Positions 27,767-43,697 of a stretch of DNA of 64,000 nt are shown piece by piece. The stretch is taken from assembly GCA_018669475.1 (NCBI GenBank), contig JABHCC010000104.1, positions 62,001 through 126,000 on the forward strand, written 5' to 3'. The notes under the pieces are model-generated. The model made no database searches. It worked only from the letters and a program-made list of their open reading frames with translations, and had not been told where the DNA came from. The position numbers and the translations under genes are program-made. This DNA comes from Bacteroidota bacterium. GTDB lineage: Bacteria; Bacteroidota; Bacteroidia; Bacteroidales; UBA12481. The first letter of the stretch is position 1; each line of letters begins with the position of its first letter.

Positions 27767-27807
27767 AACTGCCGGATAGATCGAAAGATTATCCGGCAGT
27801 TTTTTTT
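27767..27807 (+). terminator. Intrinsic terminator after GroES-like gene
   Basis: Stem AACTGCCGGATA (27767-27778) pairs perfectly with TATCCGGCAGTT (27790-27801), and the loop can extend the stem with ATC/GAT closing a GAAA tetraloop (27783-27786). A run of eight Ts (27800-27807) follows. It also abuts the convergent crp-type gene stop at 27807-27809, so it may act in both directions. Confidence 0.9.
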
Positions 27808-28478
27808 CAATCGAGATAGGCAATAAGTTTCTCCTGATCCATAATAGTCACCTGTCTGTTCTTAATCCGAAGGATATCTTCATCCTCTAGCTGCGAAAAC
27901 ACCCTTGCAATAGATGGTCTTGCAGCACCAAATAACTCTGCCATAGCCTGTTGCGAAATAGGAATTTGAATTGAGCCTGAATTTTTTTGATTTTGCTGAA
28001 GTAAGTAATGTGCCAATTTACCTTTTAGAGTCTTGAATGACAGAAACTTAAGCTTTCGCGTAAGGAACTGAGTCTTTTTGGAGATCAGGTTCAAATAGTT
28101 TATTTGTGCCTGTGGACAGTAATGAAGAAGCTTTAAAAATTGATCCTTGTAAATAATCAATACAACGACATCTTCATTCGCCAAAACATCGACGGGAAAA
28201 TAGTTATCATCTCCAAAAACAAAAGCTCCAGCCAGAGGTTTTGGTGCTGAAATATCCTCAATTTTGATCATCCGACCTGAAAAATCAGTCATCTCTGCTC
28301 TTACGCTTCCTGTGAGGAGGATGTTCAAACCTTTAACTTCATCTCCCTGTATAGCCAGCAGCTCATCTTTTTTATATCTTTTAACCTGGTATTCAACTAT
28401 CCCAAACACTTCTATTAAACGGTCATGACTAATCCCATGAAGTACTGGACAGGCACCAGCTTTACTTAACCATTTCAT
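27807..28478 (-). CDS. Crp/Fnr family transcriptional regulator
   Basis: 223 residues. The N-terminal cyclic-nucleotide-binding-like beta roll (KRYKKDELLAIQGDEVKGLNILLTGSVRAE, shown in part) is followed by a dimerisation helix and a winged-helix domain with the HTH MAELFGAARPSIARVFSQLE. No FNR-type cysteine cluster is visible, so no iron-sulfur sensing is inferred. Ligand unknown. The gene is preceded by a repeated leader element and a 15-codon frame (28489-28536), and its RBS is AAAAGG just before the ATG. Convergent with the groES-like gene, sharing the terminator. Confidence 0.93.
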   Translation of the reverse strand: MKWLSKAGACPVLHGISHDRLIEVFGIVEYQVKRYKKDELLAIQGDEVKGLNILLTGSVRAEMTDFSGRMIKIEDISAPKPLAGAFVFGDDNYFPVDVLANEDVVVLIIYKDQFLKLLHYCPQAQINYLNLISKKTQFLTRKLKFLSFKTLKGKLAHYLLQQNQKNSGSIQIPISQQAMAELFGAARPSIARVFSQLEDEDILRIKNRQVTIMDQEKLIAYLD

Positions 28479-28488
28479 CCTTTTATAT

Positions 28489-28536
28489 TTATTTATTTAT
28501 TTTGTCTGATGGAGCTCGCACAACAAAAACAATCAT
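28489..28536 (-). CDS. Possible 15-residue upstream ORF before crp-type gene
   Basis: A short frame MIVFVVRAPSDKINK starts at the ATG that ends leader copy 1 and stops 10 bp before the crp-type ATG. In the other two leader copies the ATG at this place is the start of the main gene (phzF, mnmA), so this frame occupies the position of a regulated gene. It may be translated as an upstream ORF that couples to crp expression. No function is known. Confidence 0.4.
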   Translation of the reverse strand: MIVFVVRAPSDKINK

Positions 28537-28582
28537 CCGCGTGTGTGTTAAAATATTTTTCCTTTTGTCATGCTCGGTTCAT
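28534..28582 (-). promoter_or_regulatory. Leader element copy 1 (MNRA frame) before crp-type gene
   Basis: On the minus strand the 49-base element begins with the four-codon frame ATGAACCGAGCATGA (28582-28568, Met-Asn-Arg-Ala-stop), then ACAAAAGGAA, an AT palindrome AAAATATTTT, AACACACAC and CGG-ATG (ATG 28536-28534). It shares about 45 of 49 positions with copy 3 (43649-43697). Upstream AAGGAG (5 bases before the first ATG) gives this mini-frame a good ribosome-binding site, and a promoter (28605-28634) precedes it. Confidence 0.7.
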
Positions 28583-28604
28583 CTTTTCTCCTTTTTGCGA
28601 AGTG

Positions 28605-28635
28605 CAAAATTAATTATCTCACTTGAATCAAGCAA
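28605..28635 (-). promoter_or_regulatory. Predicted promoter of crp-type gene leader
   Basis: TAATTTTG on the minus strand (28612-28605) matches TAnnTTTG, with TTG about 20 bp upstream as a -33 element. It lies 22 bp before the Met-Asn-Arg-Ala frame, so transcripts should carry the entire leader element. Confidence 0.5.
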
Positions 28636-28745
28636 GCATATTATCTTATCTATAAAGAATACATAATTAGCTATATTTCTGATATTGCTTTTTTTTGGAA
28701 TATTGATAGCTTTTCGGTAGATTGGAACAAACCTATTTCATTGTT

Positions 28746-31583
28746 ATGAAACGTATAAGCCTCTTAATACTTGCCTTTCTTTGTTTCAATAACCTTGCCT
28801 ATTCACAAGACTTTGGGAGCTACTCTCCAGATATTAAATGGAAGCAAATCAATACAAGGTCGGTGAGGGTGATTTTTCCTGTCGGACTTGAAAATGCAGC
28901 AAACAGGGTTGCTAATAATCTGGTTTACATTGACCAGAATAATCGCACCAGTATTGGATCAAGATCTAAGAAGCTCAGTTTAATTCTGAATAATCAGGGA
29001 ATTATTCCGAATGGATATGTAACACTTATGCCATTCAGATCAGAGTTCTTCACGACACCTTTTCAGCAAAGTCATGCCCTGGGTTCATTGCCATGGCTTG
29101 ATTTATTATCAATTCATGAATACCGCCATGCTCTGCAGTACTCAAATTTCAACCAAGGTCTGACTAAACTCGGGTATATTCTGGGTGGACAGCAGATTTG
29201 GGCATTAGTTGCAAATCTCACGACCCCTAACTGGTATTTTGAAGGAGATGCGGTAATGAGTGAAACAGCTCTTACTGAACAGGGTCGAGGCAGAATTCCG
29301 GCATTCTACCAGGGATATAGGAGTATTCTGGGAACAGAGAATACCTATTCATACATGAAAGCTCGAAATGGATCATATAAAGATGCCATTCCGGATCACT
29401 ATCCATTAGGATATTTGTTATGCAAATACGGACGTGAGGAATATGGGGATGATCTTTGGATGAGAGTCATAAAAGGTACAGCAAATTTCCAAGGTATTGT
29501 GTTCCCTTTCTCAAAGGCATTACGCAGAATTACTACTCATTCAACAAGATCTTTTTATAACTCTGCAATGCTGAAGTATCAGGACGACTGGAGTAATCAA
29601 CTCCAGACACTGGTATCAATTCCAGCTCAAACAATAAACATAGAATCTCGTACTGTTACTTTCTATAAGCACCCATTATTTGAAAAAGAAAAAGGCAGTT
29701 TATTAGTTTATAAATCCAGTTTTAAACAAACTGGTGCCATATATGAAATACAAGCCGATGGTACTGAATCCAAAATAACTGATACAGGTATTAGCCTGGA
29801 TCCTTATTTCTCAGGAAGCCAGAATTACTTATCATGGACTGAGTATTCAGGAGACATGCGATTTTCCACAATCACCTGGTCTGATATTGTTATTTATAAC
29901 AGAAATACTCAGAAGCTGAAATATCTGACTGAAGGAGAAAGACTGTTCTCTCCGGATATCTCTCCGGATGAAGCTGAGATTCTGGCTTTGGAGTCTACAC
30001 AGGAACTGAGCCATCAATTGGTAATTATTGACCGTGAATCAGGGGATATTAAACAAAGAATACCCAACCCTGAAAACCATTATTATACTTATCCACAATG
30101 GGATAATAGTAATAAATATTTGATCTCATCTGGCAGAACAAAAACAGGAAAAATGTTTATTGCACGAATTACCCGTTCCACGGGTAGTGTACAAATGATC
30201 CTGAATCCTTTTAATCACATCATTGGTAGCATTACCCCAGGTAAAGAACATATTTATTTCTCAGCTTCTTTTGGAGGCAAAGATGATATTTATGCTATTA
30301 AAAGGACGGGAGGTACAATATTTCAGTTAACTGATAGTCCATATGGAGCCTATCATTCAAGTATTAGCCATAACGAGGAACAGCTGGCATATAGCGCTTT
30401 CACATATAACGGAAGGAATTTAAAGCAAGTCAGGATACAGGACGCTTTATGGAAACAAGTAAGTCCTGTTCCTCTTCACCAAACAGAAGGATACGTCCCT
30501 GCTTATGCATCTGTTGAGGGTGGTAATATTCTAAACAGGATTCCAAATCAGGAATACAAAATCAAAAACTATTACCCGATTCTCCATTCACTTAAAATTC
30601 ACAGTTGGTCACCAACATCACGGAATACATTAACTTCAGTCGGCCTGGCAATCCAGTCTGATAATGTGATGAACAATTTACATCTTGATGCAGGGGTAGA
30701 TTATTACTTAAACGAAAGATCTACAGGGTACTCTGTCAATGCTAAATATGGCAAATGGTTTCCAATCATTTCATTGTCGTATGGTGAGCTGTATAGGCAC
30801 CCGGGTATTCTTGAATTCAATGCTCGTGGTACCTGGGAGCGATCCATGTCAGCCGGACTTGAAATTCCGCTTGATTTTTCAAAAGGCACGTTTATTAAGC
30901 AAGTACTTTCACAGGCAAACGTACAACGAACTACCATACCTTCATCGGGGTATGATTTGTATTCGGGATCCAATATGAGCTTTGCTGTATTAGGACTGCA
31001 ATCAAAAGCCATAATAACAAAAATCAAGGCCTATCAAAATATCACTACGCCATTGGGAGCTGGCGTAGAATTTATAATTAACCGATCTCTTTCCAGCCTG
31101 AGAGCCTCTCAGGTTCAGGTTTTCGGTGATGCGGCGGTACGGGGTTTAATGCCAAATCATAATCTCGTATTGGGATTATCAGCCAAAATTGAACCTAGTT
31201 CAAATCAGTATCAATTCATTGACCAACATACCTATCCTCGTGGCTATCAGATCCCGGAAAATGATTTTATGATCACAGTTTCTACTAATTATCATTTTCC
31301 TCTTTTATATCCTGATATCGGAATCAATGGTATCATTTATTTATTAAGAATAAGAGCAAACTTATTCGTCGATCTGGCCCAGGGTCGGGTTGTCGATTAT
31401 TCTTCTTCAGTGATTTGCCGACGCTATCTCTCGGCTGGTTCTGAACTTATTTTTGATACGAAAGTTTTTAATATTCTTCCAATGAGTATCGGATTCAGAT
31501 ATTCACTCTTAGGTTTTTCTGATCTTCATAATCCAAGTAAAAATGGTAAATTCGAAGTCTTTCTCCCAGTTTTACGAATTTAA
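28746..31583 (+). CDS. Secreted zincin-like protein with beta-propeller and C-terminal beta-barrel region
   Basis: 945 residues from the ATG at 28746, giving the signal peptide MKRISLLILAFLCFNNLAYS; a TTG at 28722 would add eight residues. Residues about 40-290 contain HEYRHALQY (an HExxH zinc motif) and a downstream FEGDAVMSE that could give the third ligand, so a metallopeptidase-like domain is likely. Residues about 300-600 hold repeated PD40/TolB-type propeller strands (FSPDISPDEAEILAL, YTYPQWDNSNKYLISSG). The last 300 residues alternate amphipathic strands as in an outer membrane barrel, ending LPVLRI. I do not know a named family for the whole; it is probably cell-surface or periplasmic. 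Divergent from the crp-type gene. Confidence 0.75.
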   Translation: MKRISLLILAFLCFNNLAYSQDFGSYSPDIKWKQINTRSVRVIFPVGLENAANRVANNLVYIDQNNRTSIGSRSKKLSLILNNQGIIPNGYVTLMPFRSEFFTTPFQQSHALGSLPWLDLLSIHEYRHALQYSNFNQGLTKLGYILGGQQIWALVANLTTPNWYFEGDAVMSETALTEQGRGRIPAFYQGYRSILGTENTYSYMKARNGSYKDAIPDHYPLGYLLCKYGREEYGDDLWMRVIKGTANFQGIVFPFSKALRRITTHSTRSFYNSAMLKYQDDWSNQLQTLVSIPAQTINIESRTVTFYKHPLFEKEKGSLLVYKSSFKQTGAIYEIQADGTESKITDTGISLDPYFSGSQNYLSWTEYSGDMRFSTITWSDIVIYNRNTQKLKYLTEGERLFSPDISPDEAEILALESTQELSHQLVIIDRESGDIKQRIPNPENHYYTYPQWDNSNKYLISSGRTKTGKMFIARITRSTGSVQMILNPFNHIIGSITPGKEHIYFSASFGGKDDIYAIKRTGGTIFQLTDSPYGAYHSSISHNEEQLAYSAFTYNGRNLKQVRIQDALWKQVSPVPLHQTEGYVPAYASVEGGNILNRIPNQEYKIKNYYPILHSLKIHSWSPTSRNTLTSVGLAIQSDNVMNNLHLDAGVDYYLNERSTGYSVNAKYGKWFPIISLSYGELYRHPGILEFNARGTWERSMSAGLEIPLDFSKGTFIKQVLSQANVQRTTIPSSGYDLYSGSNMSFAVLGLQSKAIITKIKAYQNITTPLGAGVEFIINRSLSSLRASQVQVFGDAAVRGLMPNHNLVLGLSAKIEPSSNQYQFIDQHTYPRGYQIPENDFMITVSTNYHFPLLYPDIGINGIIYLLRIRANLFVDLAQGRVVDYSSSVICRRYLSAGSELIFDTKVFNILPMSIGFRYSLLGFSDLHNPSKNGKFEVFLPVLRI

Positions 31584-31585
31584 AA

Positions 31586-31632
31586 ATGAACCGAGCGTAA
31601 CAAAAGGAATAATATATTAACACACACGGATG
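31586..31632 (+). promoter_or_regulatory. Leader element copy 2 (MNRA frame) before phzF
   Basis: A 47-base copy of the leader begins three bases after the stop of the zincin gene. The mini-frame is ATGAACCGAGCGTAA (31586-31600): compared with the other copies, GCA TGA has become GCG TAA, so both Ala and the stop are kept. ACAAAAGGAA, an AT palindrome (TAATATATTA) and AACACACACGG follow, and the copy ends at the phzF ATG (31630). There is no TAnnTTTG box just upstream, so it may be read from the preceding gene. Confidence 0.7.
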
Positions 31633-32418
31633 CAAACAGAAATATATCAAGTAGATGCATTTACCTCCAATACTTTCGGAGGTAATCCCGCAGCCGTCTG
31701 TCCGCTTGAAGAGTGGCTTCCAAAACATATAATGCAATCTGTAGCAGCTGAAAATAATTTAGCAGAGACTGCTTTTTTTGTAGCAAAGGATGAAGGATTC
31801 GAAATCCGATGGTTTACTCCAAAAATTGAAGTTGACTTATGCGGACATGCTACTCTTGCAGCCTCCTGGGTCTTATTTAAGCACTTAAACTATTCTGAAG
31901 ATATTATTAAATTTTCATCCCGGTCAGGGGAACTGCTTGTAAGTAAAAAGGCTGACAGGATTATTTTAGATTTCCCGGCCGATTTTTGTGATCCCGTTGA
32001 AGCACCACAAGGGCTGTTTCAAGCTATTGGACAGGAACCATTATTGTGTTACCAAGGAAAAACAGATTACCTTCTTATATATCAGAATCAAAAAGTTATT
32101 GAAAACCTGAAGCCTGATTTTGCTGCTTTAGCTAAAGTTGAGGCACGAGGCATCATCGTTAGTGCCAAAGGCGATGCAGTTGACTTTGTTTCTCGTTTTT
32201 TTGCTCCCCAGGTAGGAATAAATGAGGATCCGGTTACCGGATCAGCTCATACAACTCTAATTCCTTATTGGAGCAGAGAATTGGTGAAAACTGAAATGCA
32301 TGCACTACAGATATCAGAGAGAGGTGGTGATTTGATGCTTAAGATGAAAGGTAACAGGGTTGAGATTGCAGGTAAAGCCATTACTTACTTGCAGGGACAT
32401 ATAACAATACCAGATTAA
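31630..32418 (+). CDS. PhzF family isomerase/epimerase-like protein
   Basis: 262 residues. The family start MQTEIYQVDAFTSNTFGGNP and the catalytic region NNLAETAFF (Glu as general acid/base), RWFTPKIEVDLCGHATLA and NEDPVTGSAHTTLIPYW are all present. PhzF-type enzymes share the diaminopimelate-epimerase fold and isomerise small acids; most family members, including this one, have unknown substrates, and no phenazine genes are nearby. Its start is fixed by the conserved N-terminus and coincides with the end of the leader element. The next gene overlaps by one base. Confidence 0.92.
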   Translation: MQTEIYQVDAFTSNTFGGNPAAVCPLEEWLPKHIMQSVAAENNLAETAFFVAKDEGFEIRWFTPKIEVDLCGHATLAASWVLFKHLNYSEDIIKFSSRSGELLVSKKADRIILDFPADFCDPVEAPQGLFQAIGQEPLLCYQGKTDYLLIYQNQKVIENLKPDFAALAKVEARGIIVSAKGDAVDFVSRFFAPQVGINEDPVTGSAHTTLIPYWSRELVKTEMHALQISERGGDLMLKMKGNRVEIAGKAITYLQGHITIPD

Positions 32419-32825
32419 TGGAACAAAAAGATTATTTACTGCGTCAATTAGAAATGATTGGCCCTATGATTATGTATATGCTTGGTATCTGGCGTGAGGG
32501 ACGAATTAATGATGCATTGGATTATGGTGCAGAGTCATTAGAAAACCTTACTGCTCTTCCTCTCAATGAACTTGATGTTATTCACCAGGATGACATTGTG
32601 AAGTTCCTTACTGAGGAAAAGGAATTACTAGCCGGACAAGTAAGAATTATTGCCGAGTTTCTGTACAGAATAGGAGAGATACGACATAAAGAAGACTTTC
32701 CAATCGGGAGAGAAACACTACTGAAAGCCCGTAGGCTTATTGAATGGCATGAACTGACAACAGGAGTATTTTCTTTCGAAGTGCAGAATATGAAAAAAGG
32801 AATTGAGCAAATGCTAACAGGATGA
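32418..32825 (+). CDS. Small helical protein, DUF6483-like
   Basis: 135 residues, cytoplasmic, predicted all-helical. It begins EQKDYLLRQLEMIGPMIMYM, which resembles my memory of DUF6483 proteins, and continues with TPR-like pairs (INDALDYGAESLENLTAL; RIGEIRHKEDFPIGRETLLK). Function unknown. Its ATG overlaps the phzF stop by one base (TAATG), so it is translationally coupled to phzF. The family name is tentative. Confidence 0.7.
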   Translation: MEQKDYLLRQLEMIGPMIMYMLGIWREGRINDALDYGAESLENLTALPLNELDVIHQDDIVKFLTEEKELLAGQVRIIAEFLYRIGEIRHKEDFPIGRETLLKARRLIEWHELTTGVFSFEVQNMKKGIEQMLTG

Positions 32826-32861
32826 TTTACTGATTAGAAAAACTCGTATCGATATTATTAA

Positions 32862-32891
32862 TTTGTAAATATGAAATTTTTCATACATTTG
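32862..32891 (+). promoter_or_regulatory. Predicted promoter of the trp operon
   Basis: TTTG (32862-32865), an 18-bp spacer and TACATTTG (32884-32891) give a close match to the Bacteroidota primary sigma consensus. Transcription should start about 6-8 bases later, placing the leader peptide ATG (32900) near the 5' end of the RNA, so the leader may be translated with little or no untranslated leader. Confidence 0.65.
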
Positions 32892-32899
32892 CTCCCGTA

Positions 32900-32959
32900 A
32901 TGATAATAACACAAAGAACATATTGGTGGTGGCTTAACGAACTTAGGATCGACTCGTGA
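32900..32959 (+). CDS. trpL: trp operon leader peptide with three tandem Trp codons
   Basis: A 19-residue frame MIITQRTYWWWLNELRIDS lies between the predicted trp promoter and a strong terminator in front of trpE. Codons 9-11 are TGG TGG TGG (32924-32932). This is the classic arrangement of a ribosome-mediated attenuator: scarcity of charged tRNA-Trp would stall the ribosome on these codons and change folding of the RNA. Downstream, GGCTTAACG (32931-32939) can pair with CGTAAGCC (32963-32970), the expected pause hairpin. It is too short for routine gene callers. Confidence 0.85.
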   Translation: MIITQRTYWWWLNELRIDS

Positions 32960-32986
32960 GAACGTAAGCCATTGAATAATAATATT

Positions 32987-33021
32987 AAAAGGCCCACCTA
33001 TCACGGTGGGCCTTTTTTTTT
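32987..33021 (+). terminator. trp attenuator terminator
   Basis: AAAAGGCCCACC (32987-32998) pairs perfectly with GGTGGGCCTTTT (33005-33016) around a six-base loop, followed by T residues to 33021. It ends 18 bp before the trpE ATG and after the leader peptide. The left arm contains CCACC, complementary to GGTGG within the Trp codons, so an alternative antiterminating fold is possible, but I have not been able to compute it. Confidence 0.9.
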
Positions 33022-33039
33022 GAATTAATTGAAAAACAC

Positions 33040-34437
33040 ATGTACACAATAACAACACATAGTAAGAGCACCCTGGCTGATACAATTACTCCGGTAAGCC
33101 TGTATTTAAAAATCAGGGATCTATACCCCAGATCCATATTGTTGGAAAGTAGTGACTATCACGGGGGACGCGACAACTATTCATTCATTTGCATGGAGCC
33201 TATTGCAAGTATTGAGGTTAAAGACCACCAGGTTAGTTTTCAGTTTCCGGATGAAAGAATGGAAATTAAGAATAGCAAAAATGTTAAAGGTATGTTGAAT
33301 GATTTCTTTGGCGCCTTTAAAGCTAATGCTCAAAATGCAAAAGACGAACTGAATGGATTTTTTGGTTACACCTCTTATGAAGCAGTTAAGTATTTTGAGA
33401 ATATTGATCTCAAAGCAAGAAATAATCGTTCGGATAACATTCCCGAGATAAAATATAGTCTTTATCGCTACATCATTGCCATTAATCACTTCAAAAACTC
33501 AATACAAATACTTGAGAACAGACTAGACAGTGGTCCTGATAACATTAATAACATCCTTGAATTGCTAAGCAATCGTAACTACCCTATATTTCCATTTCAT
33601 ACGGCTGGATCTGTCAGGTCAAACATGACAGACGATGATTATAAAGATCTTGTTACTGCTGGCAAATCTCATTGTCACAGGGGAAATGTGTATCAGATAG
33701 TTTTATCAAGAAGATTTGAGCAAGATTATACAGGGGACGAGTTTAATGTGTACCGGGCATTGCGCTCAATAAATCCCTCTCCCTACCTATTCTTCTTTGA
33801 TTTTGGCAATTTCAAAATATTTGGCTCCTCACCTGAAAGCCAGTTGATTGTTAAAGACCATGTTGCCCAAATCAATCCTATTGCAGGCACATTCAAACGT
33901 AGCGGAGATGACCTTAAAGATCAGGAGCTTGCGGAAAAACTCGGACAAGATAAAAAGGAAAATGCAGAACATGTGATGTTGGTCGACCTTGCACGAAATG
34001 ATCTGAGTAGAAACTCAACAAATGTACGGGTTGAAACCTTTAAGGAGGTTCAGTTCTTTTCGCATGTCCTGCATATGGTTTCTAAAGTCATTGGAGATCT
34101 GCCGAAAAACTATAATCTTATTCAGTTAATTGCAGACTCTTTCCCTGCTGGCACATTATCAGGAGCACCAAAAATTAAAGCTATGCAGTTAATTGATGAA
34201 CTCGAACCTACCGGAAGGGAATATTATGGGGGCTGTATTGGCCAAATAGGGCTAAACGGCAGTTTCAATCATGCAATTACAATACGAACATTTCTAGCGC
34301 GTAATAACACATTGATTTACCAGGCCGGAGCTGGTATTGTGGCCGATTCATCTGAAGAAAAAGAACTGGATGAAGTGAAAAACAAACTTGCCGCACTAAA
34401 TACAGCCATTGAAATGGCATCAAACCTCAACAACTGA
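33040..34437 (+). CDS. trpE: Anthranilate synthase component I
   Basis: 465 residues. It makes anthranilate from chorismate, with ammonia from TrpG. Signature segments are INPIAGTFKRSGDD, ENAEHVMLVDLARNDLSR and FPAGTLSGAPKIKAM. The N-terminal LLESSDYHGG matches the LLES motif that binds Trp for feedback inhibition, so the enzyme is probably feedback-controlled in addition to attenuation. First gene of a complete trpEGDCFBA operon; trpG follows after 4 bp. Confidence 0.97.
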   Translation: MYTITTHSKSTLADTITPVSLYLKIRDLYPRSILLESSDYHGGRDNYSFICMEPIASIEVKDHQVSFQFPDERMEIKNSKNVKGMLNDFFGAFKANAQNAKDELNGFFGYTSYEAVKYFENIDLKARNNRSDNIPEIKYSLYRYIIAINHFKNSIQILENRLDSGPDNINNILELLSNRNYPIFPFHTAGSVRSNMTDDDYKDLVTAGKSHCHRGNVYQIVLSRRFEQDYTGDEFNVYRALRSINPSPYLFFFDFGNFKIFGSSPESQLIVKDHVAQINPIAGTFKRSGDDLKDQELAEKLGQDKKENAEHVMLVDLARNDLSRNSTNVRVETFKEVQFFSHVLHMVSKVIGDLPKNYNLIQLIADSFPAGTLSGAPKIKAMQLIDELEPTGREYYGGCIGQIGLNGSFNHAITIRTFLARNNTLIYQAGAGIVADSSEEKELDEVKNKLAALNTAIEMASNLNN

Positions 34438-34441
34438 AATC

Positions 34442-35020
34442 ATGAAAGTACTCATCCTGGATAACTACGACTCTTTCACGTATAACCTGGTTCACTATGT
34501 CAGAGAATTAACTGATTCACCCATTAGCATAGCTCGTAACGATCAAATCACACTTGAAGAAGTTAATGAATTTGATCACATTTTATTATCACCCGGACCC
34601 GGAATACCAGATGAAGCCGGCTTATTAAAAGCCATTATTAAAGAATACGCTTCAACGAAAAGCATTTTTGGGGTTTGTCTGGGAATGCAGGCTATTGGGG
34701 AAGTATTTGGCTGCAAATTACTTAATCTCGATCATGTATATCATGGCGTTGATCTTCCAATAAGGGTTACAGATCCAAAAGACATCACATTTACCAGACT
34801 CCCGTCATCAATGAATGTTGGCAGGTATCATTCATGGGTGGTTGATCAGGATAGTGTGCCCGATTGTCTGAGCGTATCAGCCCTTGATGATAATAACTAT
34901 GTTATGGCTCTTTACCATAAAGAACTTAATATTCGTGGAGTACAATTTCATCCTGAGTCAATTATGACTGAGCACGGTAAAATCATGCTCAAAAACTGGT
35001 TATACCCAACAGTATTATGA
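34442..35020 (+). CDS. trpG: Anthranilate synthase glutamine amidotransferase subunit
   Basis: 192 residues from the ATG at 34442 (an earlier in-frame start at 34409 would overlap trpE and add 11 unrelated residues). Class I amidotransferase with nucleophile Cys in FGVCLGMQAIGE and the His/Glu in VQFHPESIMTEHG; the N-terminus VLILDNYDSFTYNLVHYV is typical of TrpG/PabA. It supplies ammonia to TrpE and may serve PabB as well. Overlaps trpD by 4 bp (ATGA). Confidence 0.96.
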   Translation: MKVLILDNYDSFTYNLVHYVRELTDSPISIARNDQITLEEVNEFDHILLSPGPGIPDEAGLLKAIIKEYASTKSIFGVCLGMQAIGEVFGCKLLNLDHVYHGVDLPIRVTDPKDITFTRLPSSMNVGRYHSWVVDQDSVPDCLSVSALDDNNYVMALYHKELNIRGVQFHPESIMTEHGKIMLKNWLYPTVL

Positions 35021-36012
35021 AAGACATTCTCAACCATCTATTCTCATATAAAACCCTCAGTGAGAAAGAAGCGAAAGAGGTATTAACTACAATAGCATCC
35101 GGAGGATATAACGATACCCAGATCGCAGTCTTCCTGGGAGTTTTTCAAATGAGAGCCATTACCCTCGAGGAATTAATGGGATTCAGATCAGCATTGAAGA
35201 ACCTTGCTATTCAGATAGATCTGACTGATTTTGAAACAATTGACCTTTGTGGCACAGGAGGAGATGGGAAAAACACATTCAATATCTCAACTTTAACATC
35301 ATTTATTGTTGCGGGTACAGGAGCAAAAGTAACAAAACATGGAAATTATGGTGTTTCTTCAACCTGTGGGTCCTCAAACGTACTGGAATATTTTGGATAT
35401 AAGTTCTCGAATAATAGAGATAAGCTACTCAAGGAACTCAACAAAGCAGGTATCTGTTTTCTCCACGCTCCTATGTTTAATCCAGCCATGAAAAATGTTG
35501 CTCCTGTACGCAAACAATTGGGTCTTAAAACATTTTTCAATATTCTCGGACCTATGATTAACCCTGCAAATCCTAATAATCAACTCATTGGGGTTTATAG
35601 TCTTGAATTGGCGAGAATGTATTCCTACGTGTATCAAACTACCGATTGTAATTATACAATCCTGCATAATCTTGATGGTTATGACGAAATATCTTTGACA
35701 GCTCCATTTAAAGCAATTTCACGAAGGCGGGAGGAATTGCTTGAACCCAGGGATTTAGGCCTGAATAAAATCCTCCCGGATGAAATCTTAGGCGGAAGTG
35801 ATATTCAGGAATCAGCAAGGCTTTTCAAATCAATATTAGAAAATGAGGGAACTCAACAACAAAATTCTGTTGTTGCTGCCAACGCAGGAATGGCATTGAG
35901 AATATTAAATCCTCAGCTAAGTTTGAGCGATTCAGTTTCTGTAGCACAGGATTCTCTTGATTCGGGGAAAGCTTTGAAAGCATTTAATCAATTAATGGAG
36001 CTTAACTCTTAA
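35017..36012 (+). CDS. trpD: Anthranilate phosphoribosyltransferase
   Basis: 331 residues. It joins anthranilate to PRPP. The PRPP site DLCGTGGDGKNTFNIST and KHGNYGVSSTCGSSNVLE are clear, as is FNILGPMINPANP. The coupling to trpG by a 4-bp overlap, and the 3-bp gap to trpC, place it in the middle of the operon. Confidence 0.97.
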   Translation: MKDILNHLFSYKTLSEKEAKEVLTTIASGGYNDTQIAVFLGVFQMRAITLEELMGFRSALKNLAIQIDLTDFETIDLCGTGGDGKNTFNISTLTSFIVAGTGAKVTKHGNYGVSSTCGSSNVLEYFGYKFSNNRDKLLKELNKAGICFLHAPMFNPAMKNVAPVRKQLGLKTFFNILGPMINPANPNNQLIGVYSLELARMYSYVYQTTDCNYTILHNLDGYDEISLTAPFKAISRRREELLEPRDLGLNKILPDEILGGSDIQESARLFKSILENEGTQQQNSVVAANAGMALRILNPQLSLSDSVSVAQDSLDSGKALKAFNQLMELNS

Positions 36013-36015
36013 GCC

Positions 36016-36825
36016 ATGATAAGTATTCTCCATACAATAGCCCGGAAAAAACTAGATGAACTGAGGCTTGCTAAACAAACAACCCCGCTGGAGGAATTGA
36101 AAGACAGACTATTATATTTTTCACCATGCTATTCACTGGCTAATAAACTGCGATATGCCAAAACACCACAGATTATAGCCGAGTTTAAAAGACGAAGTCC
36201 TTCAAAGGGAATAATTAACATGCATTCTCAAGTTGATGTAATCGGATCGGGATATGAATTGAATGGGGCAGCGGCGATATCTGTTCTGACTGATGAATCC
36301 TTTTTTGGTGCTACAAAACACGATTTTCCTTCTGTGAGAAAAACTGTCTCAGTCCCAATAATCCGGAAGGAATTCATAATCGATCCTTATCAGATACATG
36401 AATCAAAGGCTATGGGAGCTGATGTCATTCTTTTGATTGCAGCTATATTGAGTCCTTCCCAGGTGAATGAGCTTGCTCACCTGGCCCAATCATTAAAAAT
36501 GGAAGTCCTGCTTGAAATTCATGATCCGGCTGAACTGGACAGAATATCCGATCATGTGTCGATAATGGGAGTGAATAATAGAAATCTCAATGATTTCTCA
36601 GTCAACCTGGACCAATCAGCGATGATGATTAAAGATCTTCCTGATCACCTTCCCAGCATTGCCGAATCGGGTATACACAATCCATCTGATCTGCTAAAGC
36701 TATACAGAAAAGGTTTTGCTGGCTTTTTAATGGGTGAGTACTTTATGAGAGTCAGAAATCCGGTTTCAGCACTTAAAGACTTTCAATATCAGATTAATAA
36801 ACTAATCGATGAAGCGGAAAATTAA
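36016..36825 (+). CDS. trpC: Indole-3-glycerol-phosphate synthase
   Basis: 269 residues, a TIM barrel that closes the indole ring of the anthranilate-derived ribulose phosphate. Conserved motifs include IIAEFKRRSPSKG, PIIRKEFIIDPYQIHESKAMGAD (in part), GVNNRNLNDF and AESGIHNPSD. It overlaps trpF by 17 bp, and the two are separate genes here, in contrast to the TrpC-TrpF fusion of E. coli. Confidence 0.97.
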   Translation: MISILHTIARKKLDELRLAKQTTPLEELKDRLLYFSPCYSLANKLRYAKTPQIIAEFKRRSPSKGIINMHSQVDVIGSGYELNGAAAISVLTDESFFGATKHDFPSVRKTVSVPIIRKEFIIDPYQIHESKAMGADVILLIAAILSPSQVNELAHLAQSLKMEVLLEIHDPAELDRISDHVSIMGVNNRNLNDFSVNLDQSAMMIKDLPDHLPSIAESGIHNPSDLLKLYRKGFAGFLMGEYFMRVRNPVSALKDFQYQINKLIDEAEN

Positions 36826-37432
36826 GATATGTGGAATCACTGATCCAGATAACCTGATCGATATAATTCGTCTGGGACCTGAATTTATAGGGCTGATTTT
36901 TTACGAAAAATCACCGCGATTTGTCACAGAAATAAGCAGGATGATTCCTATATTATCATTGCCAAGACAATATAAACTTATCGGTGTATTTGTGAATGAG
37001 AGTCTGGATAAAATACTTGAGATCAGTATAATCGCCAGACTGGATGGAGTACAATTGCATGGCAGTGAGAGTCCTGAATTCTGTCGTGAATGCCAAAACA
37101 ACGGGCTTTTTGTAATAAAGGCTTTTGGTGTTGGTAAAGAATTTAATTTTGAAGATATTGATATATACCAGCCAAATATTGATCTCTTCCTTTTTGACAG
37201 CAACAGTCCGGGGCATGGAGGGAGCGGAAATAAATTCGAATGGAATGTATTGAGTGCTTACCACGGTGAAACTCCATTTTTATTGAGCGGAGGTGTTAGT
37301 CCTGATGATCAAATAACTGTGAAAAATAGCTCATTTCTCGGAGTGGACTTGAATAGTCGTTTTGAAATAAAAGCCGGATTAAAAAATATTGAAAGTCTGA
37401 ATTACTTTATAACTAAATACAGAAATGAATAA
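36809..37432 (+). CDS. trpF: Phosphoribosylanthranilate isomerase
   Basis: 207 residues. Catalytic Cys near the N-terminus in [38 protein letters not shown] and [10 protein letters not shown] are typical, with the catalytic Asp expected in [13 protein letters not shown]. It isomerises phosphoribosylanthranilate to the ribulose form. It starts inside trpC (17-bp overlap) and ends inside trpB (8-bp overlap). Confidence 0.96.
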
Positions 37433-38618
37433 TATCTCAGCTCATCCTGATTCCGATGGCTTCTATGGTGACTATGGAGGAGCCTATATTCCTGAAATGC
37501 TTCTGCCAAATATTCAGGAATTAAAAGAGAAATACCTGGAGATTCTTGAGAGCCCCTCATTTATCAAAGAATTCACTTCACTTTTAAGAGATTATACCGG
37601 TCGTCCTACCCCACTCTTTCATAGCAAAAGACTCTCTCAGAAAATTGGCTGTTCAGTATATTTAAAAAGGGAGGATCTTAATCACACCGGGGCTCACAAG
37701 ATTAATAATACTATTGGTCAGGTTTTAATAGCCGGATTTCTTGGGAAAAGTAGAATAATTGCTGAAACGGGGGCTGGTCAGCATGGGGTGGCAACAGCTA
37801 CCGTTTGTGCCCTGAAAGGTTTAGAGTGCATTATATATATGGGTGCTCTTGATATTGAAAGACAAGCACTCAATGTGTATAAAATGAAAATGCTGGGAGC
37901 AAAAGTTGTTCCTGTTCATTCGGGAAACAAAACTCTCAAGGATGCCACTAATGAAGCCATTCGCGACTGGATCAACCATCCGGAGGAGACACATTACATA
38001 ATCGGATCTGTAGTTGGGCCCCATCCTTACCCTGATATAGTTACCCGTTTACAATCAGTAATTGGACATGAGATTAAACAACAATTCAAAGAAAAAAATC
38101 CAGGGAAAAATCCCGATTATATTATTGCATGTGTAGGTGGAGGCAGTAATGCTGCCGGGGCATTTTATCCATTTATCAGTACAGATGAAACGCAATTAAT
38201 TGGAGTGGAAGCTGCCGGAAAAGGTAATGAAACCAGCATGAGTGCAGCAACACTCGAATTGGGCAGGCCTGGAATAATTCATGGCAGTATGACTATCCTC
38301 ATGCAGGATCAGGATGGCCAGATTACGGAACCCTATTCGATTTCAGCCGGGCTTGACTATCCTGGTATAGGTCCGGTTCATGCCTGGCTTGATGCTAAAG
38401 GCCTTGTAAAATATCTGAGTGTTACTGATGAGGAGGCTTTGCAGGCAGCCAAAGATCTAACTGTACTAGAAGGGATTATCCCAGCGCTTGAATCAGCACA
38501 TGCTATCGCCGCACTTTACAAAATGAATTTCCGGTCTGATGAAACTGTAGTGGTAAACTTATCCGGCAGGGGAGATAAAGACATGAGTACTTATAAAAAA
38601 GAATTTGGTGATGAATAG
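37425..38618 (+). CDS. trpB: Tryptophan synthase beta chain
   Basis: 397 residues, the TrpB1 type. The PLP lysine lies in [31 protein letters not shown] follows, and the phosphate loop [10 protein letters not shown] and [11 protein letters not shown] are intact. It condenses indole with serine. Overlapped by trpF (8 bp) and trpA (8 bp), consistent with tight coupling of the alpha and beta chains. Confidence 0.98.
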
Positions 38619-39402
38619 AATTGACTTGCTTTTTAAGCGAAAGCAAAATGATATCCTTTCAGTATATTTCACTGCAGGCCACCCTGAAATTAACAGCCTG
38701 GCAGAGATCTTGCCAGCCCTGGAGAATGCTGGTGTTGATTTGATTGAGATTGGAATGCCTTTTTCTGACCCCATTGCAGATGGGCCCGTGATTCAGAAAT
38801 CAAGTCAAACAGCCATCTCAAATGGGATGAGTCTGAAGGTACTTTTTGAGCAGCTTCGTAATATTGAGTTTAACATACCTGTTATACTAATGGGTTACCT
38901 GAATCCGATTCTTCAATATGGAATTGAGAACTTCCTGATATCCTGTAAGGAAGCAAATGTAAGCGGTACTATCATTCCGGATTTGCCCCTTAGTCAATAT
39001 TTGATCCAGGAAGAAACATTTATTAGAAATAATATCCATAATATCTTGTTGATTACTCCACTAAGCACAGATAGGAGAATTACGGATCTGGCAGAAAAAT
39101 CCCGTGGGTTTTTATATGCAGTTGCCAGTTCAGCCACTACAGGAAGCAGCTCATTTCATAATGCTGACACAAGCTATTTTGAACGAATAAGATCATTAAA
39201 TCTAAAAATTCCAATAATATTCGGTTTTGGAATCAGTTGTCACGCAGATTTCATTAAGGCCTGCGATTGGGGATCAGGAGCTATTATTGGAAGTGGCTTC
39301 ATCAAGCTTCTTGAACATATCGAGTCCCGGAAAATGGATTACACACGAACTATTGCTGATTTTGTTTGTCGTATTAAATACGGTAACAGTATCCAGAAAT
39401 AG
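38611..39402 (+). CDS. trpA: Tryptophan synthase alpha chain
   Basis: 263 residues from the ATG at 38611; in-frame TTG and GTG lie just before. Catalytic Glu and Asp are found in [17 protein letters not shown], preceded by [10 protein letters not shown]; the loop [22 protein letters not shown] is typical. It cleaves indole-3-glycerol phosphate and passes indole to TrpB. Last gene of the operon; no clear terminator is visible before the next gene's region. Confidence 0.97.
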
Positions 39403-39446
39403 TATTTAATTGTTGAGGTTTTCAAAGGTTGGAGACATTGGTCAAA

Positions 39447-39454
39447 TAATTTTG
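39447..39454 (+). promoter_or_regulatory. Candidate -7 box of second sensor kinase
   Basis: TAATTTTG matches TAnnTTTG and lies 49 bp upstream of the kinase ATG. The -33 element is not clear. Prediction only. Confidence 0.35.
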
Positions 39455-39503
39455 TTGTTAGAGCTATTGTTTAATATCTTTAGTAGTTAAGCAATTATCA
39501 GAA

Positions 39504-41279
39504 ATGCAAAAAGATTATATATACACACTTCCTAGTATAATATACATTTGTCTGGCATGTCTCAGCCTGATTCTCGTATTGCTGATTTGGAGAAAAAGAA
39601 ATACACCGGGAGCAAAACCAACATCTCTTTTCTTTCTAGCGCTTTTTATATGGGCATTTGCTTATATATTCGAATCTGCTGCAACGAATGTTGAAGGCAA
39701 ACTCCTCTGGTCTCAGATAGCCTATCTTGGCACACTGAGTACTCCTATGCTTTTCCTGGCCTTTTCGCAGGAATATTGTAACCGGAGACTGATCCACAAA
39801 CCATATGCATGGATATTATTGGGCATCATACCAATGGCAACATTTATTTTAGCCTGGACCAATAATTCTCATCATCTGGTATGGACAGATATTACTATTC
39901 AGGGTAATCAGCATTTAGCTGTTTATGGCCATGGAATTGCTTTTTGGGTTTTTTTCATTTATGCTTATATACTGATCATTCTCAGTTTGGGATATTTAAT
40001 ATTTACAGCTTTTCGATTACATAAAATATACCGTCAACAGGCAATTTCGACAAGCATTGCTGTTAGCTTCGTAGTCGCCGGAAATATCTTATATATGATT
40101 CCTTCAAATCCAATTCCGGGAATGGAATGGACTTTACTTGGGTTCCTGTTATGCTCTCTTATACTTTCTTATAATATTTTGGGCTTGAAACTTTTCAACC
40201 TCGTACCAATTGCACGAACTCATCTTGTTGACACAATGACATCAGGCATGCTACTCGTTGATAAAGCTGGAAGGATTAAAGATATTAACCAAAGTTTTCT
40301 GTCACACTTAAATATTCAGAATATAGATTATCTGGGGCAGCCTTATTCAGAGGTATTATGCAATACTCCTGAACTCATCGATATGCTTTCAGATAAAAAT
40401 GTTTTCGAAAACCAGAAAATATCTGAATTTCATCACCATGATCAGATTCTGGATGTAAGAATCTCTGATCTGGCTAGCAAGAATCACAAGATGACCGGTA
40501 GACTTTTACTCATAAACGATATTACAGATTTAAAACAGGCTGAACAATCTTTACAAAAAACAAACAAGTTATTATCAGACCAGATAGAGAATAGTAATAA
40601 GCTTATCCTTGAGCTAGATGCTTATGCCCATACGGTAGCCCATGATTTGAAAATTCCACTGAATAGTCTGGTTGGTTTTTCTGAATTATTGACTGAAGAA
40701 TTACAATCAGGTAATTCCGAGCTGGCCGGGAAGTACAGTACTCAAATCACGTCCTCAGCTGATAAAATGGTTCAGATAATTGAAGAACTATTGCTCCTAT
40801 CTTCAGTCAGGTCACAATCGGTTGAATTACAAAGCCTGAATATTGGTAAAAGTGTAGGTCTTGCTCAAGATAGAATCTCAGAGCTGATTAAAGCAAGCAA
40901 AACAGTTATTAAGCAGCCTGACCAATGGCCTGAGGTTATAGGTTATGAACCCTGGATCGTGGTAATATGGGTGAATTATTTATCAAATGCTATCAAATAT
41001 GGTGGTGATCCTCCTGAAATCACTATCGGATATGATGAAAGTCCTGAAGTTATATGGTTTTGGGTTAAAGACAATGGAGCCGGACTCAATAAGGATCAGT
41101 TGAATCAATTATTTAAACCATATTCAAGACTCTCACCTCATACAGCCGATGGTCATGGGCTGGGTCTATCCATTGTAAAAAGAATTCTCGAGAAACTCAG
41201 AGGTGATTACAATGTAAAAACCCTGGATGAAGGTAATGGTTCAGTATTTCTCTTTTCATTACCCCGGATATCAGGCTAA
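39504..41279 (+). CDS. 7TM-PAS sensor histidine kinase
   Basis: 591 residues. About seven hydrophobic helices (1-230) form a histidine-kinase 7TM domain, then a PAS-like domain (about 240-345), a short coiled coil, a HisKA domain with H-box YAHTVAHDLKIPLNSLVGF (His380) and an HATPase domain with N box WVNYLSNAIKYGG, G1 DNGAGLN and G2 DGHGLGLSIVKRIL. It shares its domain order with the sensor kinase at 561-3104 but has no receiver domain. Signal and partner regulator unknown. It lies between the trp operon and a convergent membrane-protein/sigma pair. Confidence 0.92.
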   Translation: MQKDYIYTLPSIIYICLACLSLILVLLIWRKRNTPGAKPTSLFFLALFIWAFAYIFESAATNVEGKLLWSQIAYLGTLSTPMLFLAFSQEYCNRRLIHKPYAWILLGIIPMATFILAWTNNSHHLVWTDITIQGNQHLAVYGHGIAFWVFFIYAYILIILSLGYLIFTAFRLHKIYRQQAISTSIAVSFVVAGNILYMIPSNPIPGMEWTLLGFLLCSLILSYNILGLKLFNLVPIARTHLVDTMTSGMLLVDKAGRIKDINQSFLSHLNIQNIDYLGQPYSEVLCNTPELIDMLSDKNVFENQKISEFHHHDQILDVRISDLASKNHKMTGRLLLINDITDLKQAEQSLQKTNKLLSDQIENSNKLILELDAYAHTVAHDLKIPLNSLVGFSELLTEELQSGNSELAGKYSTQITSSADKMVQIIEELLLLSSVRSQSVELQSLNIGKSVGLAQDRISELIKASKTVIKQPDQWPEVIGYEPWIVVIWVNYLSNAIKYGGDPPEITIGYDESPEVIWFWVKDNGAGLNKDQLNQLFKPYSRLSPHTADGHGLGLSIVKRILEKLRGDYNVKTLDEGNGSVFLFSLPRISG

Positions 41280-41301
41280 CATTAGTTAATTCAAGCAGAC
41301 A

Positions 41302-41919
41302 TCACTCCTCATTCACAGCATCCTTCAATTCCAAAAGTTTAACCAGCAAAGGTTTTTTATCCTTTCTCCATTGACGAATTGATGACCACAAGGCAAATCC
41401 CATTATCAGAAAGAATCCACCATTTACTAAAAGAATTCCCAGCCAAAGAGACCAATCATCAGGCCAATATCTGGCAAAGACGGTAGTATTGAGCCCCCCA
41501 AGAAGTAAGAGAATATAGGGTACTAACATCCATGAATCCTTTGTCCAGTATCTCAGCCTTTCTTCCGATATATCAATAAACTCCCGGGTTGACATTCCAT
41601 ACTCCAGATATTTCAATTTCATATATGCTTTGTAGGCAAATGGTATGTACAATACAAATGCAAGGAATAAAAACCCTCCCTGTACGCGTTGGGCATATGT
41701 CATTTCAGGATCAGGATTAAACATAAAAACGATTACAAGTACGACCATAGCTCCCATAATCAGTCTGATCATAAATCGAATTGTTTTAAGACTTTTCTTA
41801 TTCGATTCCCTTACCTGATCCAAAATAAGATCTGACTTATTCTGTGACTGATCTGCAATAAAATCTAATCCAGACGCATCAGTTTCTTTTATCCTTTTGC
41901 TAAACTCTTTAATATCCAT
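41302..41919 (-). CDS. Four-helix membrane protein, putative anti-sigma partner
   Basis: 205 residues. A charged cytoplasmic N-terminal part (about 1-45) precedes four likely membrane helices (about 48-65, 78-95, 130-150, 158-180). Its start overlaps the stop of the ECF sigma gene by 11 bp, the arrangement usual for sigma/anti-sigma pairs. No zinc anti-sigma motif (HxxxCxxC) is present. Role as anti-sigma factor is inferred only from position. The pair at 51073-52283 has the same layout. Confidence 0.7.
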   Translation of the reverse strand: MDIKEFSKRIKETDASGLDFIADQSQNKSDLILDQVRESNKKSLKTIRFMIRLIMGAMVVLVIVFMFNPDPEMTYAQRVQGGFLFLAFVLYIPFAYKAYMKLKYLEYGMSTREFIDISEERLRYWTKDSWMLVPYILLLLGGLNTTVFARYWPDDWSLWLGILLVNGGFFLIMGFALWSSIRQWRKDKKPLLVKLLELKDAVNEE

Positions 41920-42445
41920 TATTTTCCTCCAACATTACTTTCAGTTTCTTTTTAACCCTATGGACTTTCACTCTCACATTCCCTTCATGCAATCCGGTAA
42001 TTTCAGCTATCTCTCTCATACTTAACTCCTCAAGAATCATCGAGATTAGAGATCTATCAAAAGCGGGAAGCTTGTTTATCTGCTGATACAGATCTTCGAT
42101 AGTTTTCTCCTGCCGGATTTTTTTATCAAGATCATGCTCATGGGAATCAATCAATGGAATAAGCTCATGATCAACTTGATTATGCTCCTTCTTCTTCTGA
42201 GAAATTACATATTGCAGAGCTGTATTGTTGGATATTCTGTATATCCATGTCTTCAAAGCACCCATGCTTCTCAAACCTTCTAATGCATTCCAAACCTTTG
42301 TCAGTATCTCCTGAAACAGATCCTGGCGGTCTGCCTCAGAAGACAGATAAATGCAGCAGGTTCGGTAGATCGGATCTTTAAAATCCTGATATACTTTCTC
42401 AAAGACTTGTTTTTTCTCTTCCGCTTTCATTCGGGTATATTTCAC
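41909..42445 (-). CDS. ECF sigma factor (sigma-70 family)
   Basis: 178 residues. Region 2 is DLFQEILTKVWNALEG with GALKTWIYRISNNTALQY, and region 4 ends SMREIAEITGLHEGNVRVKVHRVKKKL, a helix-turn-helix. It directs RNA polymerase to a special promoter set. It is overlapped by the membrane protein gene at its 3' end, and is closely similar in motif pattern to the sigma factor at 51073-51579. Upstream it is 33 bp from the end of mnmA, on the same strand. Confidence 0.93.
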   Translation of the reverse strand: MKYTRMKAEEKKQVFEKVYQDFKDPIYRTCCIYLSSEADRQDLFQEILTKVWNALEGLRSMGALKTWIYRISNNTALQYVISQKKKEHNQVDHELIPLIDSHEHDLDKKIRQEKTIEDLYQQINKLPAFDRSLISMILEELSMREIAEITGLHEGNVRVKVHRVKKKLKVMLEENNGY

Positions 42446-42478
42446 CCTATAGATGGGAAATGATAAAATTGTTACAAA

Positions 42479-43651
42479 TTAATTATGAATAACACCAGAA
42501 CCTATCAACTCATCATTCTGGTAAAAAGCAGCAAACTGTCCTGAGACTACAGCCCTTTGAGGATCTTTGAAGTGCACATATCCTCCATCATCTTTCATAA
42601 AGAGCGTTCCTTCCTGTAATTTCTGACGATATCGGATTCTAAAAAGAAAATCCCTTTCCTCTCCATTTGCTAAGGCCAGGTCAGGACGGATCCAATGCAT
42701 ATCTTCATTACGAATAAACAAAGCCTGTTTAAATAATAAAGGATGGTTTTGTCCTTGTCCTACATACAAAATATTTTTAACCACATCTGTCCCGATAACA
42801 AATAAAGGTTCTGGCTTACCTCCTATATTCAGGCCCTTTCTTTGTCCGACCGTATAAAAATGAGCTCCTTTATGTTTCCCTACTGAATCACCCAACTCAG
42901 GGGTGAAGGCATATGGTTTGGCTAAAGAAAAAAGATCATCCATATCTCTTACTAATGCAGAATCTGGCGGAATCTCAATCACATCACCTTCTTTTGCGGC
43001 TAACTGCTGCTGTAAAAAGGTAGGTAAGTCTACTTTGCCTACAAAACAGATCCCTTGTGAGTCTTTTCTATCAGCATTGGCAAGATTTTGTTCCCTGGCA
43101 ATTTGCCTTACCTCAGGCTTTGTAAGTTCTCCTATTGGAAAAAGTGCAGTTTCAAGCTGTTTTTGATTCAGTTGGCATAAAAAATATGACTGATCTTTAT
43201 TATCATCCAAGCCTGCAAGCAAGCGATGTCTGATTACTCCATCAGTCTCTATACTTTCTTTTCTGCAATAGTGACCTGTTGCTAAAAAATCAGCACCAAG
43301 CTTTAGTGCCTCCTCTGCAAAAGCATCGAACTTTATTTCACGATTACACAACACATCAGGATTTGGTGTTCGTCCGGCTTCATATTCCTTAAACAGATAA
43401 TCAATAACCCTTTTCCTGTATGGACCACTCAAGTCAACTTCATGCAAGAGAATTCCCAATTTATTTGCCACCATTTCAGCAAATAGAATATCATCTTCAT
43501 AAGAGCAGGCTGCTGATTTCAATCCGGTAGTATCATGCCAGTTTCTCATAAATAAACCCACAACATCATAACCTTGTTGCTGTAGTACATAAGCTGCCAC
43601 ACCAGAATCAACACCACCAGAGATGCCCACTACTACCCTTTTCTTATTCAT
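42479..43651 (-). CDS. mnmA: tRNA-specific 2-thiouridylase MnmA
   Basis: 390 residues. The ATP pyrophosphatase loop GISGGVDSGVAAYVL starts the protein, followed by the catalytic Cys in PDVLCNREIKF and the second Cys in GICFVGKVDL, and the C-terminal barrel (KGAHFYTVGQRKGLNIGG). It installs the 2-thio group on uridine 34 of Lys, Glu and Gln tRNAs. Its ATG is at 43651, exactly at the end of leader element copy 3. It is followed by the ECF sigma gene on the same strand. Confidence 0.96.
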   Translation of the reverse strand: MNKKRVVVGISGGVDSGVAAYVLQQQGYDVVGLFMRNWHDTTGLKSAACSYEDDILFAEMVANKLGILLHEVDLSGPYRKRVIDYLFKEYEAGRTPNPDVLCNREIKFDAFAEEALKLGADFLATGHYCRKESIETDGVIRHRLLAGLDDNKDQSYFLCQLNQKQLETALFPIGELTKPEVRQIAREQNLANADRKDSQGICFVGKVDLPTFLQQQLAAKEGDVIEIPPDSALVRDMDDLFSLAKPYAFTPELGDSVGKHKGAHFYTVGQRKGLNIGGKPEPLFVIGTDVVKNILYVGQGQNHPLLFKQALFIRNEDMHWIRPDLALANGEERDFLFRIRYRQKLQEGTLFMKDDGGYVHFKDPQRAVVSGQFAAFYQNDELIGSGVIHN

Positions 43652-43697
43652 CCGTTTATGTGTTAAAATATCTTTCCTTTTGTCATGCTCGGTTCAT
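43649..43697 (-). promoter_or_regulatory. Leader element copy 3 (MNRA frame) before mnmA
   Basis: The minus strand carries ATGAACCGAGCATGA (43697-43683, Met-Asn-Arg-Ala-stop), ACAAAAGGAA, an AT-rich near-palindrome and AACACATAAACGG before the mnmA ATG (43651-43649). The ATG-to-ATG distance is 46 bases, identical to copy 1. A -7 box (43709-43702) sits 5 bases before the first ATG, so the transcript may begin almost at the mini-frame. Confidence 0.7.

Follow-up and report, generated by a model that had tools for sequence, protein, structure and literature searches.

A miniature, very probably mobile element with ATGAA as its target, mostly at gene starts, in Bacteroidales

This study reveals that a 64,000-nucleotide stretch of DNA from a Bacteroidota bacterium (hereafter the window) carries three copies of a small structured repeat, of which about 140 copies, counted by their right ends, are present in the whole genome. 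We regard it as highly probable that this repeat is mobile and ATGAA-targeted, and in most surviving copies of the window's genome the target would be the first five bases of a gene. Our best explanation, to which we give about an even chance, is a miniature non-autonomous mobile element that targets ATGAA, leaves the gene a start codon and is moved, perhaps, by an HUH enzyme in trans.

The initial annotation had placed three copies of a leader in the window, and our analysis finds all three where it placed them. The 11-base start of the element, ATGAACCGAGC, occurs exactly three times in the window, against 0.63 occurrences expected even with one mismatch allowed, and copies 1 and 3, whose likeness had been put at about 45 of 49 positions, indeed match at 92% over 51 nt. 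The block delimited at that time is real, but it forms only the first part of a larger unit of about 101-104 bp. As read from the sequence, copy 1 is a full-length element of 104 bp (28479..28582, minus strand) that ends directly before the start codon (ATG, 28478-28476, minus strand) of a Crp-like regulator, whose gene lies outside the element (27807..28478, minus strand; Pfam HTH_Crp_2 and cNMP_binding). The 5' arm of a long hairpin, H1, lies in this copy at 28563..28573 (GCATGACAAAA) and the 3' arm at 28518..28528 (TTTTGTTGTGC), both on the minus strand and with a pairing conserved in the family. A guide, CATCAG, recognized by family covariation, lies at 28506..28511 on the same strand; it is only partly complementary to its target, AGGATG, and the main guide form in the window's genome is CATCCG. 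Copies 2 and 3 are short forms. Copy 2, which has modules 1 and 2 only, measures 44 bp (31586..31629, plus strand) and stands directly before a PhzF-like gene (31630..32418, plus strand, ATG at 31630; Pfam PhzC-PhzF), and copy 3, of 46 bp (43652..43697, minus strand), stands directly before an mnmA-like gene (42479..43651, minus strand, ATG 43651-43649; Pfam tRNA_Me_trans). The host genes are mutually unrelated, and their assignments as crp-type, phzF and mnmA are borne out by Pfam. The 15-codon frame that had been drawn before the crp-type gene is not: since copy 1 is full length, this frame is module 3, the second half of copy 1, and it is the ATG at 28478 (minus strand) that opens the Crp-like gene.

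The full unit in the window's genome consists of ATGAACCGAGC, the long hairpin H1, the guide CATCCG and a CGG directly before ATGAA. Its modules come in the order ATGAACCGAGC (module 1), ATGACAAAAGGAAAAATATTTTAACACACACGCGG (module 2) and ATGATTGTTTTTGTTGTGCGAGCTCCATCCGACAAATAAAATTAAATATAAACGG (module 3), followed by the gene's own ATGAA, and ATGA opens every one of the three. The element ranges from about 90 to 110 bp, with longer forms of up to about 144 bp, and the right ends of short copies fall exactly at internal ATGA sites. Thirteen copies, read by eye and including copies 2 and 3 of the window, have modules 1 and 2 only, to which one more (L040) is added, with a junction that reads ATGATG. 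Copies with module 1 only are 11 bp long, and six of these sit before ORFs in other genomes. Other short copies are made by internal deletions (L006, L007, L064, L067 and L076), and tandem copies, joined at ATGAA, are also present. Some copies lack their left end although the right end is intact.

The window's own genome comprises 5.56 Mb in 215 contigs, and a search of it with a 24-base left-end pattern allowing up to three mismatches yields 96 matches (46 and 50 on the two strands), against none for the reversed control. The second half of the element alone gives 87 matches, and a 16-base right-end pattern that closes with ATGAA gives 98 with at most one mismatch; the reversed control gives none in either case. 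In total 144 right ends were counted, among which one repeats another (L070 repeats L009) and four are candidate copies only (L025:856, L043:822, L089:847 and L103:342). Fourteen of the 144 run into another copy, and 110 of the remaining 130 non-tandem right ends coincide with the start of an ORF (at least 60 codons, or at least 25 codons to the edge of a stretch). The other 20, several of which are doubtful entries, lie mostly less than about 200 bases upstream of a start, and about six copies (L023, L040, L055, L085, L101 and L109) have no sense-oriented gene downstream. ATGAA follows 139 of the 144 right ends, a figure biased by search motifs that themselves contained ATGAA; the ORF-start figure is free of this bias. 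By a rough ORF call, the window holds 25 ATGAA sites at starts and 20 at other intergenic positions, including three that belong to the left ends of the elements themselves; a further 271 lie within genes. Therefore, gene starts are favoured over other intergenic ATGAA sites, and gene interiors are avoided.

Further evidence comes from a set of three sister metagenome genomes (G061, G064 and G066), which are close relatives, 82-96% identical at the compared gene starts and 89-96% at the clean sites described here. At five of 14 reference sites a sister genome has a clean empty allele, the pairs of filled and empty sites being L181/L238, L171/L244, L174/L236 and L237, L160/L249 and L250, and L186/L240 and L241. 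The empty allele has ATGAA once (ATGCA in L236), and the filled allele has the element between two ATGAA, with intact flanks and nothing lost; these pairs include one case of the 11-bp form and two tandems. Among the other sites, three (L143, L175 and L179) have sisters that share the ends but carry another middle of CCCCGA/TCGGGG-type palindromes, one (L121/L231) is occupied by another subfamily, and in one group (L159) the sisters show only decayed tails; the remaining four (L155, L166, L176 and L183) are too diverged or unclear. The five clean sites thus display a short fixed target without loss at the site, a feature of the IS200/IS605 type. The native site has a single ATGAA, and once it is filled ATGAA stands at either side of the element; therefore the gene keeps a start codon immediately before it, and only its 5' leader becomes longer.

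The same ATGAA duplicates would also be expected if the transposase of a miniature element, whether cut-and-paste (DDE) or of another type, duplicated ATGAA as its 5-bp target, and the consensus ends, CCG...CGG, also agree with this explanation. Target duplication by another enzyme would look the same as our model because the site is nearly always ATGAA. The element further resembles RUP, Correia, ERIC and similar MITEs of DDE transposons in being non-autonomous, about 100 bp long, dispersed and structured. However, it differs from them in its fixed ATGAA site and in its ends, where long terminal inverted repeats were not found and complementarity is limited to the 3 bp of CCG...CGG. Target duplication does not usually involve a fixed 5-base target, and the right ends of the short forms (11 bp and about 46 bp) coincide exactly with internal ATGA sites, which also speaks against this explanation. 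We therefore consider a DDE-type origin to be unlikely.

Identical copies indicate that the element has moved recently. One relative's genome contains seven identical 101-bp copies at different sites, and another contains three identical copies, also at different sites. ORFs of at least 100 codons follow only three of the seven and one of the three; although these numbers are small, so few recent copies at ORF starts suggest that the start bias may grow through loss of insertions elsewhere. Enrichment at gene starts would then result from both target choice and such loss. A transcription-linked process, first suggested by the near-universal sense orientation of the copies, is disfavoured by the about six copies outside that arrangement and by the four of the seven recent identical copies that lie away from ORF starts.

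Another feature of the copies is that the left end is often cut and the right end fixed. About 90 copies are full and roughly 30 truncated, some to 12-25 bases only, as counted from 126 entries minus at least six doubtful ones (L026, L031, L067, L070, L073 and L079) that appear to be chance matches, parsing errors or stretch edges. Such a pattern, with the left end missing in roughly a quarter of the copies, favours the main rival to our model, a SINE-like retroposed RNA. Here the element RNA would be copied to DNA with the antisense gene start (...TTCAT-3') as a primer on AUGA; priming at the end, priming at internal AUGA and incomplete copying would give full, short and left-truncated copies, respectively, and template jumps would give tandems. 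The short-form right ends exactly before internal ATGA sites agree with this, as does the sense-strand fold of H1 considered below, and the window's genome does have a group II intron with a reverse transcriptase and a retron-like reverse transcriptase. However, nothing links the element to either reverse transcriptase, and about six copies are not upstream of a sense gene. The truncation points cluster just past the 5' arm of each hairpin, and this is not the place at which a reverse transcriptase would first run into the hairpin; the decayed tails of the L159 group suggest that the truncated copies may have lost their left parts after insertion, while the gene-side end was protected. Because selection would protect the gene-side end, and because of the decayed tails at this one compared site, we rank retroposition lower and think it improbable. 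It is similarly doubtful, in our judgement, that a SINE-like retroposon or some other undescribed transposition system recognizes gene starts via a start-codon-pairing guide and is the source of many 5' leaders in the order.

The element has two hairpins, and compensatory changes support both H1 and the guide-target hairpin, H2. In the first 11 pairs of H1 over 117 copies there are 1076 Watson-Crick pairs, 151 sense-strand G-U, 7 A-C and 53 other combinations. A G-U on the sense strand is an A-C on the opposite strand, and because G-U far exceed A-C, it seems to be the sense strand, either in RNA or in single-stranded DNA, that maintains the H1 fold, with the qualification that most of the 151 G-U come from two positions and reflect shared ancestry in part. 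The departures in H2 (19 A-C and 6 G-U on the sense strand) run opposite to this strand reading. In H2 the internal guide, CAT plus three bases, pairs with the right ATG together with the trinucleotide that precedes it. Guide and target read CATCCG/CGGATG in 38 of 77 copies of the window's genome, and CATCTG/CAGATG (17), CATGTG/CACATG (8) or CATATG/CATATG (6) among 40 copies of other genomes; Watson-Crick pairs in H2 number 288, against 213 (sd 6.7) with shuffled partners. An alignment of 38 copies from near relatives is 95.2% paired in this structure, with a covariation score of 0.174 against 0.101 when shuffled, and three of its pairs show double changes, the same as in shuffles. Among 40 copies of distant relatives, compensatory changes occur in 12 of 17 pairs (8.8 in shuffles) and the score is 0.290 against 0.086; this alignment had been made to follow the structure and so is biased in its favour, but slid partners score at most 0.03. 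Folding of single sequences is little better than that of shuffles (z of -1.5 and -0.9). The architecture found is one long H1 plus an H2 that includes the right junction, whereas a classic IS200/IS605 element has one hairpin at each end.

According to excerpts of PMC6006769, pairing of a guide with its target is the rule by which IS200/IS605 enzymes choose their sites. By analogy, the covariation of H2 may reflect guide pairing with a presumed cleavage site, and the single-strand rules of IS200/IS605 appear to accommodate the H2 guide, the short fixed target and the alternative ends at ATGA. We therefore propose that a single-strand HUH transposase of IS200/IS605 type, provided in trans, would fold the sense strand, use the guide to find ATGA(A) cleavage sites and move the element as single-stranded DNA, and that cleavage at internal ATGA sites would yield the short forms of about 46 and 11 bp. 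On this analogy, an IS200-like HUH enzyme as the mover is a tentative proposal, which we rate at slightly less than an even chance. Y1 transposase genes are present in eight of the nine carrier genomes examined, although such genes are common generally, and one genome (G062) has one copy of the element and no Y1 match. In the window's genome there is one Y1 gene (locus L117; 149 aa; NCBIfam IS200 transposase), with no element ends found nearby. Its motif, YIKNQREHH, resembles the YIKNQKEHH given for subclass 1.2 in excerpts of PMC6006769. In the eight other carriers, 20 loci inspected among 29 Y1 matches include none in which both element ends flank the Y1 gene. Two of them (L267 and L272), inspected with their full surroundings, are flanked by other palindromes of their own, which lowers our confidence in the HUH reading, and the lone match that resembles a right end, in L267, belongs to the gene that follows. 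The single long hairpin with H2, the H2 strand counts and the left-only truncations, which are not directly predicted, also count against an HUH enzyme. No autonomous copy was found; the Y1 gene, the group II intron and the retron-like reverse transcriptase were each considered as its site and rejected.

The initial annotation had left two readings open, a small dispersed element with insertion sites exactly at start codons and a translated leader kept by selection on its Met-Asn-Arg-Ala mini-frame. The former is well supported by the about 140 copies, the empty sites in sister genomes and the identical recent copies, and the latter is not supported. The four-codon frame is kept in 77 of 96 copies and broken in 19, under a search that allowed A or G at positions 12 and 14 and so favoured frame keeping. 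Changes are no rarer in its start and stop codons than in the rest of the frame, with 12 in the three positions of the start codon, 14 in the three of the stop codon and 22 in the nine positions 4-12, and seven of the 14 stop-codon changes leave a stop. In 10 of 29 loci from distant relatives the frame is shifted by one additional base ahead of the second ATG. Selection on the mini-frame is thus not supported. More broadly, a leader common to a regulon, whether riboregulatory or translated, and maintained by selection for gene control would account for the position directly before start codons, for the strongly conserved structure and for an H2 that would hide the start codon. However, its presence varies site by site between sister genomes, where the leader is not conserved at orthologous genes (five of 14 sites being cleanly empty in a sister), and tandem, non-start and decaying copies, the unrelated host genes in the window and the unconserved mini-frame all speak against it. 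We consider such a leader very unlikely; a regulatory side effect on host genes is possible.

The element is not confined to one genome. An exact 20-base scan of one genome per species finds it in eight other metagenome assemblies, seven labelled as Bacteroidales, Bacteroidetes or Bacteroidota and one as Mcinerneyibacteriota, and a strict pattern of the element is absent from 59 other relatives. A covariance model, with up to nine candidates scored per genome, rough E-values and no decoy, gives matches in 113 of 393 genomes of the order (the window's own included) and in 73 of 206 genera, the rest of the order being reached by this model only and not by the strict pattern. The best 29 loci of other genomes have the same architecture; at 24 of these 29 the right end starts an ORF of at least 100 codons, and at two more it runs into a second copy. 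A riboswitch or other Rfam family was considered and rejected, as neither the window nor 20 loci with the element have an Rfam match above the gathering score, the weak matches being far below it. Carriage by phages was likewise rejected, the eight viral-contig loci found with a 17-base pattern being unrelated sequence. We found no published description of the element in titles and abstract openings of the open-licence literature.

Comparison with other known systems helps to place the element. IscB and IsrB (OMEGA, HEARO) are linked to IS200/IS605-type elements and associated with insertion at ATGA. IsrB cuts targets adjoining TTGA or ATGA according to excerpts of PMC9581776, which is a point of likeness to our element, but the latter has no Rfam match of any kind. 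A search for IscB-type genes in six carriers gave zero matches anywhere and is therefore uninformative. With non-autonomous derivatives of IS200/IS605 the element shares a short fixed target, no variable target duplication, a hairpin and an internal guide complementary to the junction bases, the last being the general rule given in PMC6006769. It differs from them in that no Y1 gene with the same ends was found, in its one long hairpin with a start-codon hairpin, in its target, ATGAA, which lies mostly at gene starts, and in its alternative right ends at internal ATGA. Like REPs and REPINs with their RAYT (TnpA-REP), it is a small, structured, high-copy repeat, presumably moved in trans, with tandems. 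Canonical REPs, however, are 21-65 nt long with GT[AG]G at the hairpin foot according to PMC6006769, and our element is about 100 bp long, lies at start codons and has no such foot, the 5' foot of H1 being ACCGAGC and similar. The same paper also lists a Bacteroidetes subclass, 2.6, with 'atypical secondary structures'; the differences given here are those from canonical REPs.

What would such an element mean for these bacteria? An element that targets mostly gene starts and leaves a start codon before the gene can spread through 5' leaders at little cost. In this genome, a similar structured leader with the start codon in a hairpin stands before about a hundred genes (110 ORF starts). If our interpretation is true, 5' leaders, small upstream frames and translation starts would have to be annotated differently in these genomes, and the way in which a transposition system might become established at the starts of genes becomes open to experiment.

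At three orthologous sites, the sole difference among the sister genomes lies in the palindromic middle part of the element. Tiny palindromes of three types, TCCCGA..TCGGGA, CCCCGA..TCGGGG and the CCGCCTGACTGGCAGGCAGG type, are located either within the element or in place of the part that forms its long hairpin, H1; they occur at loci L018, L025 and L091 of the genome that the window comes from and at the further loci L118, L122, L137, L234, L235, L245 and L247. Longer copies of about 130-144 bp (loci L298, L310, L312, L318, L319, L320 and L331) contain an additional segment of about 36 bases within the loop of H1; this insert is variable and has diverged from genome to genome.

Palindromes of other kinds than those of the element flank genes for the Y1 (IS200-like) transposase at three loci (L117:1200-1900, L267 and L272), and these perhaps represent further families of small repeats in the genomes concerned. 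The window itself carries a GGTTCTGGTACA-rich repetitive array with steps of 12-18 bases at 1018-1258.

The genome that the window comes from also contains a group II intron (L115:1-1900; Rfam matches RF01999 and RF00029) that looks complete and has its own reverse transcriptase. A second locus (L116:269-3546) encodes a putative reverse transcriptase, labelled retron-like from its appearance, which is preceded by a short ORF and followed by an ATPase-like ORF, and this region is possibly a defence locus.
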